Source of the DNA: Candidatus Electrothrix aarhusensis
Lineage (GTDB): Bacteria > Desulfobacterota > Desulfobulbia > Desulfobulbales > Desulfobulbaceae
Assembly: GCA_004028505.1 (NCBI GenBank)
Contig: MTKO01000034.1
Span: forward strand, 1 to 64,000
Reading direction: 5' to 3'
Length of the DNA: 64,000 nucleotides
The translations under genes and the position numbers were made by a program. Position 1 is the first letter of the stretch, and every line of letters starts with the position of its first letter. This document shows positions 16 through 44,614 of this stretch, one piece after another. Under the pieces are notes generated by a model, which was not told the origin of the DNA, searched no databases, and saw nothing but the letters and a program-made list of their open reading frames with translations.

Positions 16-2923
16 ATGAGCACATTATTTCGCATAGCACGCAAGGAATTCGGAGCCTTTTTTAGCTCTCCGGTTGCCTTTATCTTTCTCGGCACCTTTC
101 TTGCGACAACCCTTTTTATCTTCTTTTTGGGTGGAGACTTTTTTCTCCCGCAATATAACAGAACTCAGGGCCTTGTTTGAGTGGATGCCAATCCTGCTTA
201 TTTTCTTAGTCGCAGCCATCACCATGCGGATGTGGGCAGAAGAGCACCGGGCTGGCACCTTGGAATTCCTGCTGACCTCACCGGTACGACCGGTCACCTT
301 GGTTTTAGGGAAATTTATAGCCTGTCTGGTGCTAATTGCCCTGGCCCTAGCCTTGACCCTGCCTCTGGCCATTACCGTGAGTTTTCTCGGACCTCTGGAT
401 TGGGGCCCGGTGTTGGGTGGCTATCTTGCCTCGCTCTTTTTGGCAGCGGCCTATATTTCCATCGGCCTCTTTGTCAGCGTGAAATCGGAAAACCAGATCG
501 TCAGCCTGATCACCACCTCGCTGATCTGCGGTCTGCTTTACCTGATCGGTTCTGACACCCTGTCTGCTTTTTTCGGTAATAAGGGTTCAGAAATTCTCCA
601 GATGATGGGAAGCGGGTCCCGTTTTCACTCAATCACCCGAGGCGTGATTGATCTTCGCGATCTCTATTATTACGTCGGCATTATGGGTGTTTTTCTTTGC
701 CTCAATATCTACGGCTTGGAGAAAATTCGCTGGGCAGGCAACCCGGTCAACAAGAACCATCGGGCCTGGCAGCTGGCTTGTGGATTGCTCATTGCCAATT
801 TTCTGGCTGCAAATCTTTGGCTTTCTCCTCTAGGTGAGCTTCGCTCGGACATGACAGATGGTGATATCTACTCCATATCTGATGCCACTCGCAGCTATCT
901 GGGACAGATTCAAGAACCCCTGCTCATTCGAGGTTATTTTTCCGCCCAGACTCACCCACTGCTGGCCCCGCTGGTGCCTCGGCTCCGCGACCTGCTGGAA
1001 GAATACGCCATTGCTGGCAACAATAAGGTGCGGGTTGAATTTATTGATCCGGCAGATAACCCGGATCTGGAGCAGGAGGCTGGCCAGAAATACGGCATCC
1101 GGCCTGTGCCTTTTCAGACATCCAGCAAGTACCAGGCCTCGGTCACGAATTCCTATTTTGATATCCTGATCCGCTACGGTGATCAGTTCGAGACCTTAGG
1201 TTTTCGCGATCTCATCGAGATCAAGGCCCAGGATGAGCAAAACCTGGACGTGGAGCTGCGTAACCCGGAATATGACATCACCCGTGCCATTAAGAAAGTC
1301 CTGTACAGCTATCAGGCAGGTGGTGATCTGTTCAGCTCTATGAAGAAACCGGTTGAACTGACCGGCTATTTTTCCGTGGATGAGCGGCTGCCAAAGGAAC
1401 TGGTCACTTTAAAGGCCGATCTGCTGGATCTGTCCAAGGAGCTGGCAGCAGAGAGCAACGGTCGTTTCACCGCCGCAACTGTTGATCCAGAGGCGAACAA
1501 CGGCATCATCGCCGAGCAAATCAGTCAGGAATACGGTTTTCGGCCTATGGCTGCCAGCCTGTTTGATCAAAATTCCTTCTGGTTTTACATGATGCTGAAA
1601 AGCGGCGACCAGACCGTGGAGATCCCCTTGCCCAAGGATCTGAAAAAAGAAAGCCTGAAGCGGGCCATCGATGCAGGCTTGAAACGTTTTGCCACTGGCT
1701 TTACCAAGAACGTGGCCCTGAGTGTTCCTGAATCTAGGCCGCCTATGCCGCAATACGGAATTCCCGGAGGAAACGGTCCTAAGTTTGATGCCCTGCGCGA
1801 GTTGCTTTCCCAAGAACATACAGTTACGGATGCGGATTTATCCAAGGGACACGTTCCAGGCGAAGCAGATATCCTGATGCTGGCTGCCCCGGAAGAGCTT
1901 AATGAAAAGGCACTTTTTGCTGTGGATCAGTTTCTTATGCAGGGCGGGACAGTAATTCTGGCCGCCTCTCCCTATACGGTTGATCTCCAGAGACAGCTTT
2001 CCATGACCGAGAAGAAGACCGGTTTGGAAGACTGGCTGGAACATAACGGCATTACCTTGGAGAAGAAAATGGTGCTGGACCCGCAAAACAGCCCTTTTCC
2101 CGTGCCGGTGCAACGAAACTTGGGCGGTTTCATGATCCGGGAAACCAAACTGGTCAATTACCCCTATTTTGTTGATATTCGACCAGACGGCATGAACGAG
2201 GACAGCGGTGTCACTTCGGGCTTGCAGCAGCTCACCATGAACTGGCCTTCACCAATCACCATTGATCCAGAGAAAAACAAGGGCCGCAAGGTCACCCGGC
2301 TGCTGGAAAGCTCTGAAAAGAGCTGGGTTTCTTCATCTACTTCGATTCAGCCGGACTTCAAGACCCACGGCGATCTTGGTTTTGCTGTTGAAGGCGAGCA
2401 AGGACAGCAACTGCTGGCAGCGGCTATTGAGGGCGGTTTTACTTCCTATTTTACAGGAAAGCCTTCGCCGTTGCTGAAAAAGGATGAAGATGCAGCGGAA
2501 GCACCCATGAAAAAAGATGGCGAAGAAAAAGAAGAGCAGGTCATTAGCCGGCAATTGGATAAATCCCCAGACACGGCCAGAATCATCCTGTTCGGTTCAA
2601 ATAGCTTTCTCAGCGACACGGTGCTGAGTATCAGTTCCAGTGTGATGCGGACCAATTACCTCGGTCCGGTGCAGCTTGTCGCCAACACAGTCGATTGGTC
2701 TCTGGAGGATCGGGGTTTGCTCTCTATCCGGGGCAGAAGCCATTTTTCCCGTCCTCTTAACCCTATCACCAAGAATAAGCAGCTTTTCTGGGAATATCTC
2801 AACTATGGTCTTGTGCTGCTTGGGTTGGCAATCATCTGGCTGCTCCGACTCCGTATTCGCAAACGGGCAGAGGAACGTCAGCTTGCCTTTTTGCAACTTG
2901 AGACAGGGAGGGTATCATCATGA
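16..2923 (+). CDS. GldF/GldG-type ABC-2 permease fused to GldG auxiliary domain (apparent frameshift)
   Basis: The membrane part of an ABC-2 exporter (GldF-like) is fused to a GldG/ABC_transp_aux domain. The first about 240 residues carry the permease helices with the family motif MRMWAEEHRAGTLEFLL. A roughly 650-residue periplasmic-type domain follows, then a last TM helix (about 915-932) and a basic tail. I choose ATG 16 because a perfect Shine-Dalgarno AGGAGG lies at 1-6 and its product (MSTLFRIARKEFGAFFSSPV) matches the family N-terminus. That frame runs into a stop at 178-180. The rest of the protein is in the next frame (open from TTG 74), and the two join if one T is removed from the T6 run at 139-144. 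The ATPase gene is presumably upstream, outside the window. The stop overlaps the next start (ATGA). The substrate is unknown. Confidence 0.85.
139..144 (+). other. Frameshift site in the GldFG fusion (T6 run)
   Basis: Reading from ATG 16 gives ...FFLGGDFF and then nonsense. Dropping one T restores ...GGDFFSRNITELRALFEW, the expected family sequence. It is a sequencing indel or a real +1 lesion. Confidence 0.75.
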
Positions 2924-26104: not shown

Positions 26105-26345
26105 ACTTGTCGCAGGATACTAATACCCCGAAGGGGTTATACTTAACAAGCTCGGGGTAACACCCCGAGAAACCCTTCTCTCCCCAGCGATAAATCACTG
26201 GGCTATGATTGAATGTCCCTCCGGACAATAGTCCCGGAGGAACGACAGAAAATAGCCCGCTGTTTTAACGGCGGGCACCAAGGTTGAGAAAGTCGTGGAC
26301 TCAGGGTGTTACCCTAAGCTGATATATACAGCCCCGTTGGGGCAT
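26105..26345. repeat. Array of short hairpins (palindromic intergenic repeat)
   Basis: At least seven stem-loops lie in about 240 nt: ACCCC/GGGGT at 26125-26138; CTCGGGGT/ACCCCGAG at 26151-26169; CCCAG/CTGGG around 26184-26202; CCTCCGG/CCGGAGG around 26218-26240; GCCCGC/GCGGGC around 26255-26276; AGGGT/ACCCT around 26303-26315; GCCCC/GGGGC at 26331-26343. None has a U-tract. It resembles dispersed REP-type intergenic arrays and lies directly in front of recJ. Confidence 0.65.
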
Positions 26346-40633: not shown

Positions 40634-41182
40634 CTATTTGTCACACTTTAAAAAAAGCCCATCTGTGTCAAGAACCTTGACTTCTGATGCCCTCTTCCTT
40701 TTCTGCGATTTCGAACTATAGGTATTCCCGGTATCACAATCATAGGCCCCTGGGCTCAGCTGAAATGCCCCTTCCCAACCCACGCGGTTACTACCATCCA
40801 TGACCCAAGAAAAATTTGACGGTTTTTCAGAACTATTACTATCGCCAGAGGTCACAGGCATATTTTGGCCGAGTGTATAAATATTTACCACCGGCTTACT
40901 CTTCCCGTCCCGTTGTATACTGTCTTTCTGTAGGACAAGAACAAAAACTGTGTTGGTGATATTGTCATAACGCAGGTAGACGTTCGGCGATACTTCTCGT
41001 GTGCCCTTCTGGTCAGAACGCATGGGGGTGGAACAATCCTTGTCCAGATCCCATTCGCCATATTGACCGTCAATAACAATCGTTTTCTGCACGCCAGCTT
41101 GCGCGGTAAAAGGAAAAATGACCAATAAAAATACTGCCAACCCTGTCATCCTTCCGCTGAATAGAGCACATCTTACTTTCAT
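40634..41182 (-). CDS. Secreted protein of unknown function under a riboswitch-like leader
   Basis: The product has 182 residues. The signal peptide ends FPFTAQA before GVQKT. The mature domain begins TIVIDGQYGEWDLDKDCS, which resembles the start of CBM9-like/DOMON beta-sandwich proteins, and has two Cys near the end (YDCDTG, LKCDK) that could pair. GGAGG lies about 7 nt upstream of the ATG. A GEMM-like RNA and a clear promoter precede it, so expression is probably set by a cyclic dinucleotide. No neighbour clarifies its role. Confidence 0.7.
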   Translation of the reverse strand: MKVRCALFSGRMTGLAVFLLVIFPFTAQAGVQKTIVIDGQYGEWDLDKDCSTPMRSDQKGTREVSPNVYLRYDNITNTVFVLVLQKDSIQRDGKSKPVVNIYTLGQNMPVTSGDSNSSEKPSNFSWVMDGSNRVGWEGAFQLSPGAYDCDTGNTYSSKSQKRKRASEVKVLDTDGLFLKCDK

Positions 41183-41211
41183 GACACCACCTCCTGGTAT
41201 TGGAAACTAAA

Positions 41212-41290
41212 AGCAGGTAACCCGGCTATCTCTCCCATCAGAGACCCGTGGTTTTCCGACACCGCCTCGCGACGACTGTGGCTTTATCAA
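41212..41290 (-). promoter_or_regulatory. GEMM-type (cyclic dinucleotide) riboswitch-like leader
   Basis: Read on the minus strand: GATAAAGCCAC, then a hairpin with a GCGA (GNRA) tetraloop, then CGGAAAACCACGGGTCTC, then a short stem (TCTC/GAGA), then ATAGCCGGGTTACC. Order and consensus pieces (GNRA hairpin, AAA-CCACGGG, AGCCGGGTTACC) are those of GEMM c-di-GMP-I/cGAMP riboswitches. The first arm (AAAGCCACAG instead of AAAGGCAAACC) is diverged. It ends about 30 nt before the start codon. Confidence 0.6.
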
Positions 41291-41380
41291 CTTTCCGGCA
41301 CAGGAATCAATAGTCCTGCAATCCTGCTCCGCACAGAAAGTGAAGGTACCCGCTGTATAAGCATAGAGGCACTTAATATC

Positions 41381-41409
41381 AAATTAAAAATATTAGAGCT
41401 ATTTGTCAA
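41381..41409 (-). promoter_or_regulatory. Sigma-70 promoter of the riboswitch-controlled gene
   Basis: Minus strand TTGACA (41409-41404), 17 nt, TAATTT (41386-41381). It gives a leader of about 190 nt that contains the whole GEMM-like RNA. Confidence 0.6.
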
Positions 41410-43972: not shown

Positions 43973-44360
43973 GGGCTTGGTTCTAAATTCGGCCAATGGC
44001 GGTAAATAAAATCTTGAGAAAGTCAGCATAAGAAGCGGCTGAGCCAATTCACTTTACCTAAATTCACTTTACCTAAATTGGCCGAACTTAGAAATTTTTC
44101 CCGGAAAATAAAATTTCCAAGCAAAGTACTGTATGGTATTGAAAACAAAGAGTATTAATGGAATTATTTATATTTTCTGTTTTTTTAAAATAAATCACGA
44201 TTAACCAACTTCTTTCAGTGTGTTACGCGCACCGTTAAGGAAAAGTTAATTTCGACCCCCTAAGTTCTAAGCTCGGCCATTTTGCAGAACCACAGCCCTA
44301 GATTATACTGCAATTGCTACATTATACTTTGGCATAATGGCCGAACTTAGAACCAAGCCC
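43973..44360. mobile_element. MITE-like element with 22/23 terminal inverted repeats and 8-bp target duplication
   Basis: The left end GGGCTTGGTTCTAA-A-TTCGGCCA (43973-43995) and the inverted right end (44338-44360) match at 22 of 23 positions. The element is flanked by perfect 8-bp direct repeats TTTAAAAT at 43965-43972 and 44361-44368. It is 388 bp with no coding capacity. It contains further TIR-like cores at 44078-44093 and 44263-44280, suggesting nested or tandem copies, and two perfect 15-nt direct repeats (AATTCACTTTACCTA, 44046-44075). It must be moved by a transposase elsewhere. Confidence 0.75.
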
Positions 44361-44412
44361 TTTAAAATCAAGCGTTCCGTTTAAAGAAATGAGACGTGCG
44401 AGGAGAAAAAGA

Positions 44413-44614
44413 AGAGGTACTTTTTCAAAAAGGACTGCTCCTTTTTGAAAATGGTGCTGTCCTCTTTCTGCTCACACCTCTCCATTTTCAAAATGGACAA
44501 GCGCGAGATCAAAAAGAGGCGATACTTTTTTAAAACGGCTCTCTCCTTTTTTAAAAAGTGGTCGTCCGTTTTTTTCTCGCAGCTCTTGATTTTTAAAATG
44601 GAAGAGCACAAAGA
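44413..44614. repeat. Tandem degenerate repeats of about 101 nt with TTTT/AAAA palindromes
   Basis: Two full units (44413-44514 and 44515-44614) share the layout AGAGG..ACTTTTT.AAAA.GG..CTCCTTTTT.AAAA..ATTTT.AAAATGGA..AGCGCGAG. A third unit upstream (about 43880-44412) is interrupted by the MITE-like element. Each unit carries three T-tract/A-tract palindromes about 26-42 nt apart. The ORFs here arise from the repeat and are not genes. Confidence 0.6.

Follow-up and report, generated by a model that had tools for sequence, protein, structure and literature searches.

The window analysed here, a stretch of 64,000 nucleotides from the marine cable bacterium Candidatus Electrothrix aarhusensis, carries on its minus strand a gene for a secreted-type protein, preceded by a leader with promoter-like boxes, a hairpin that we denote P0, a GEMM-I aptamer and a Shine-Dalgarno (SD) region (Table 1). 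An earlier note on this DNA had proposed a secreted protein as the target, and the start codon indeed lies beyond the aptamer and is followed by a signal-peptide-like N-terminus. Among the 37 genomes searched, orthologs of the protein were found only in seven genus-mates (the named records carrying them being Ca. Electrothrix marina, Ca. Electrothrix gigas and a Desulfobulbaceae MAG), and the aptamer is present in the leader of every ortholog. Searches with the protein returned neither a Pfam family, even at E 10, nor a credible solved relative, and its AlphaFold model is unusable (mean pLDDT 35.7); from the motif VDGQYDEWD, a CBM9/DOMON-like domain might be guessed. The same note had described the promoter as well formed. 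All seven orthologous leaders of the genus share the TTGACA-17-TANNNT arrangement, but the second hexamer, TAATTT, is weak and was not listed by a generic scan. Elsewhere in the window, an imperfect 105-bp tandem repeat with nested inverted repeats occupies positions 44239-44602 within a non-coding stretch, and positions 26230-26275 (minus strand) match the Acido-Lenti-1 RNA with a score of 38.7, barely over the Rfam cut-off of 37, as does L040 at 2166-2211 (minus strand; 38.9).

Table 1. Features of the leader and of the gene that it precedes, in the order of transcription.
Feature	Position	Strand	Basis
-35-like box TTGACA	41404..41409	-	17 nt before the -10-like box; same in seven orthologous leaders
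-10-like box TAATTT (TANNNT in all orthologs)	41381..41386	-	read from leader sequences
Small hairpin near the predicted transcript 5' end	41346..41372	-	fold
P0 5' arm (CACUUUCUG; core CUUUCUG, 41334-41340), proposed anti-SD element	41334..41342	-	covariation among genus leaders; window fold
P0 3' arm (CGGAAAG), adjoining the aptamer linker UUGAUAAA	41291..41297	-	side-by-side reading, covariation, fold
c-di-GMP-I (GEMM-I) aptamer	41213..41292	-	RF01051 54.2 bits and covariation
Equivalent of Vc2 G20: G	41282	-	alignment; genus count
First aptamer arm (CC..ACA..GCGA loop..GUC..GG), previously called diverged	41256..41281	-	alignment; genus count; covariation
Equivalent of Vc2 A47: A	41255	-	alignment; genus count
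Equivalent of Vc2 C92: C	41217	-	alignment
CUUUU downstream of the aptamer, to which the P0 3' arm may pair instead	41209..41213	-	constrained folding
SD region CAGGAGG, with complementarity to the 5' arm of P0	41190..41196	-	duplex energies; window fold
182-aa secreted-type protein, Electrothrix-specific, no Pfam family	40634..41182	-	ATG at 41182

The suggestion that the leader contains a GEMM-like riboswitch, marked by a GNRA hairpin, CCACGGG and AGCCGGGTTACC in GEMM order, is borne out. All three marks are present at the proposed places and in this order, the GNRA loop being GCGA (41267-41270), as GCGA or GUGA is in most genus copies. In the Rfam search, RF01051 yielded a minus-strand match of 54.2 bits against a gathering score of 35, with an E-value of 8e-08 over the 64 kb searched. 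Across 37 non-redundant aptamers of the genus, 95.7% of the cells in the aptamer structure are paired, and changes on both sides occur at 11 of the 21 pairs, a count matched by none of 500 shuffles; the above-threshold score is thus accompanied by strong covariation. Because the aptamer is shared by seven orthologous leaders and 26 further RF01051 copies exist in the genome, a chance match can be ruled out. The clan-mate model c-di-GMP-I-UAU (RF03168) also aligns end to end with the same aptamer, at 56.4 bits; membership in that class was rejected, since this score is below the model's own cut-off of 65.9 and since, at the two contact positions that are U and U in the RF03168 consensus, the window has G and C. 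Clear Watson-Crick pairing of a P1 helix was not seen beside the aptamer: pairing of the linker (UUGAUAAA) with CUUUU, considered as P1, gives no signal, and neither this pairing nor that of GAAAG with CUUUU shows covariation. In Cd1, P1 is lacking (PMC9262584). Judged by sequence comparison, the window aptamer is a genuine c-di-GMP-I riboswitch with an ordinary sensor and a compensated arm.

The first arm had been regarded as altered in a way that may change the choice of ligand. Like Vc2 of Vibrio cholerae, the type example of RF01051, the window aptamer has two arms, a GNRA loop, G20, A47, C92 and the interhelical C44-G83 pair, whereas it differs from Vc2 and RF01051 in the pair 21-46 (C-G instead of G-C) and in the internal loop (ACA/GUC instead of AAA/GAC); the pair 22-45 is kept and the closing helix of the arm is still paired. 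In the alignment, C44-G83 corresponds to 41258 C and 41226 G, a placement based on the Vc2 numbering of the 3IRW sequence. The ACA loop is common to 124 of the 129 genus copies read (GCCACA in 121, ACCACA in 3), the AAA loop being found in 5. The swapped 21-46 pair, combined with AAA/GAC, is already present in most family relatives, and the full ACA/GUC pattern was detected in 11 other genomes, including those of other families, in a sample of 395 genomes of the phylum. Another genome of the phylum has four matches with the ACA/GUC first arm at a spacing of ~1.6 kb (G161:C35:54994-59914). In Vc2 the ligand is contacted by G20, A47 and C92, while C44-G83 is an interhelical pair (PMC4744006). 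Since the arm is genus-wide and all these bases are canonical in the window, it provides no ground for a new ligand, and a ligand change through the first arm, which also occurs in other families, was abandoned as the main reading.

Position 20 bears on the ligand. The cGAMP-responsive GEMM-Ib riboswitches of Geobacter have the same architecture and a similar tendency to be multiplied within a genome (G. sulfurreducens has 17 GEMM-I; PMC6456294), but membership in GEMM-Ib calls for A20 (PMC6456294), unlike the G of the window. In Gmet_0970, a GEMM-Ib riboswitch, the single A20G change turns selectivity from cGAMP to c-di-GMP (PMC6456294). Given that G20, A47 and C92 are canonical and that position 20 decides the ligand in Gmet_0970, c-di-GMP is most likely the ligand of the window aptamer. 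It could be argued that the ligand of the window copy is 3',3'-cGAMP, or that the copy answers to both dinucleotides, considering that some Geobacter GEMM-I riboswitches do the latter (PMC6456294) and that all eight Electrothrix genomes have kept a Thr-type Hypr-like GGDEF protein; we regard this as very unlikely, because the window has the G20 of c-di-GMP binders, as do 126 of the 129 genus copies (A20 being found in 3), and because of the effect of A20G in Gmet_0970.

The unusual part of the leader is its expression platform. Across the copies, P0 has the layout CUUUCYGGU ... ACCGGAAAG-UUGAUAAA-G20, so that the hairpin ends right at the aptamer, and past the aptamer the SD region reads, among other forms, ACCAGGAGG, ACCGGGAGG or ACCGGAAAG. 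The P0 5' arm is complementary to two segments, its own 3' arm and this SD region, and since one arm serves both pairings, they exclude each other. Own partners pair better than swapped ones: for arm and SD, -8.86 versus -7.69 kcal/mol in 68 leaders (z -5.5, 0/5000 permutations) and -9.05 versus -8.04 in a second set-up with 63 leaders (z -4.6, 0/5000). The two arms of P0 behave similarly (z -4.3 for own versus swapped partners), and a fixed register anchored on AGGAGG, chosen independently of the arm, also gives a signal (z 3.5, 0/5000). The control pairings of the 3' arm with SD, CUUUU with SD and the arm with the linker gave no signal in the swap test. Among 10-mers, none pairs better with the SD region than the arm in 40 of 57 leaders (mean -10.5; -3.4 for the arm against the shuffled SD region). 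Partners that change together are seen in the copies C46 (CUUUCUUGGU / ACCAGGGAGG, with one extra base on each side) and C100:18923 (CUUUCUGGUUG / CAAUCGGAGAG), as well as in C13 (CUUUCCAAU / AUUGGAAAG / AUUGGGGGG), which is outside the automatic set and serves as an illustration separate from the statistics. Pairing of GAAAG with CUUUU does not covary, because CUUUU is nearly invariant. In the window leader, arm and SD are paired in the minimum-energy fold and P0 is formed in the centroid; the leader is no more stable than its shuffles (z -0.32), which is uninformative. Collectively, covariation supports pairing of the P0 5' arm with either the P0 3' arm or the SD region.

P0 might instead be a passive 5' stabiliser or spacer, with control exerted otherwise (for example, through mRNA decay or Rho) and the complementarity between arm and SD reflecting common descent. 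This explanation gains from the partly generic nature of the pairing, given that CUUUC fits any GGAGG, and from the weaker outcome of a distance-correlation test that removes relatedness, in which 68 of 2000 permutations reach the arm-SD value and 138 of 2000 the arm-arm value, a moderate result. We nevertheless consider it improbable, because own partners beat swapped ones in two independent set-ups, whereas the control pairings do not, and because of the co-changing cases, including the one-base change in length at C46. P0 probably alternates between a closed hairpin and a form that masks the ribosome-binding site of the secreted-protein gene. No terminator was found at the window locus, and from the P0/SD pairing we infer a translational switch. 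Vc2 is also described as a translational OFF switch (PMC9262584); the window leader differs from it in that a competing anti-SD arm is carried by an upstream hairpin, so that the SD control encloses the aptamer. In a limited literature search, we found no description of an upstream competing anti-SD hairpin for GEMM-I.

Without ligand, P0 would be closed and the gene translated. Upon folding of the aptamer on c-di-GMP, the P0 3' arm (GAAAG) would be drawn to the CUUUU just after the aptamer, freeing the 5' arm, which would then cover the SD and stop translation of the secreted protein. The direction of control was approached by constrained folding of 102 leaders, with the aptamer core held paired and G20 and A47 left free, in an energy model that is without tertiary fold and transcription order. 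With the core held, pairing of GAAAG with CUUUU rises in 52 of the 102 leaders and falls in 1, and that of the arm with SD rises in 40 and falls in 13, whereas P0 falls in 43 and rises in 19; on average the shifts are small, with hardly any response in the window leader itself. We lean towards OFF at high c-di-GMP, since the first two pairings mostly rise and P0 mostly falls, although this is the weakest step of the model and one that we hold only somewhat more probable than its opposite. The same aptamer and platform could work as an ON switch, with c-di-GMP favouring closed P0 and exposing the SD. The leaders in which P0 rises and arm:SD falls fit such a switch, and P0, being transcribed first, may persist; with the opposite movement in more leaders, ON control seems the less plausible direction. 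Overall, we favour as likely a GEMM-I riboswitch that senses c-di-GMP and works through a translational platform peculiar to the lineage, as the OFF switch described. The genome has nine GGDEF matches.

The aptamer is present in many copies across the genus. The window genome has 27 RF01051 matches and its seven genus-mates 9-21 each, amounting to 146 in the eight genomes. Matches occur in 41 of the 74 genomes of the family; outside the genus most of these have 1-9, and one has 25. In copies from other genera of the family, read by eye with one copy per genome, an intrinsic terminator lies just downstream in 16 of 23 and the P0 unit in 0 of 23; transcription terminators are also used by the Geobacter examples studied, unlike in the window. 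Two copies of the window genome (C2:8611 and C64:1950) have terminator-like hairpins in place of P0. Two genomes each have a row of three c-di-GMP-I aptamers with the older AAA arm, spaced at ~133 nt and separated by terminator-like hairpins (G004:C1:4928718-4929063 and G007:C1:4046050-4046395). Since the sampled copies of other genera mostly have terminators and none has P0, the sequences make P0 look like a platform replacement that was then multiplied in Electrothrix.

The genes that follow the copies, directly or after a short ORF, include those for the window protein, CAP, GspH-type pseudopilin, hemerythrin, phosphonate-binding, PA14/PEP-CTERM, P-domain/PEP-CTERM, tail-collar, GNAT and DUF4382 proteins; a collagen-like protein gene comes after a terminator-type copy. 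In many copies, a short ORF (~40-95 aa) with its own SD precedes the recognisable gene (L009, L010, L017, L019, L020, L023), and these ORFs are possible leader ORFs or means of polarity control. The three A20, cGAMP-like copies (G001:C171:14525, G003:C2:1008362 and G004:C1:2696897) all precede one gene family (DNDCFKA..., secreted, 123-124 aa), other copies before this family, including that of the window genome, having G20. Seven copies have U92. Five of them (G001:C22:29390, G003:C1:1214142, G004:C1:3811350, G005:C25:11889 and G006:C1:859686) precede one orthologous secreted protein, and G20/A47/U92 is therefore conserved there; the other two are G006:C1:2242289 and G006:C1:1573365. All eight Electrothrix genomes encode a GGDEF protein in which Thr occupies the Hypr position (GHHAGT...GGDEF; G000:C62:29343-29597, L194; L195-L201). 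Hypr enzymes are marked by Ser/Thr at the signature position together with the GGDEF motif (PMC6456294), and the Thr-type protein carries this signature in each genome. The A20 and U92 copies together with this Hypr-like protein hint at a second ligand elsewhere, not at the window copy. A broader scenario, in which one multiplied translational unit with the upstream, mutually exclusive anti-SD hairpin governs a large surface and secreted regulon and some copies (those with A20, in three genomes, and the seven with U92, of which five are orthologs) have shifted from c-di-GMP towards cGAMP made by the conserved Thr-type Hypr enzyme, is tentative and, taken as a whole, doubtful.

Cable bacteria have been called unculturable (PMC10926707), and in the literature searched we found none that deals with their riboswitches or with control by c-di-GMP. 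The repeated unit names, from sequence alone, a candidate c-di-GMP regulon of secreted, GspH-type pseudopilin, CAP, PEP-CTERM and hemerythrin proteins, and the A20 and U92 copies offer natural pairs in which the evolution of ligand choice in GEMM-I can be examined. The repeated unit also suggests that, in a family whose relatives rely mostly on terminators, an upstream anti-SD hairpin was adopted and subsequently multiplied.
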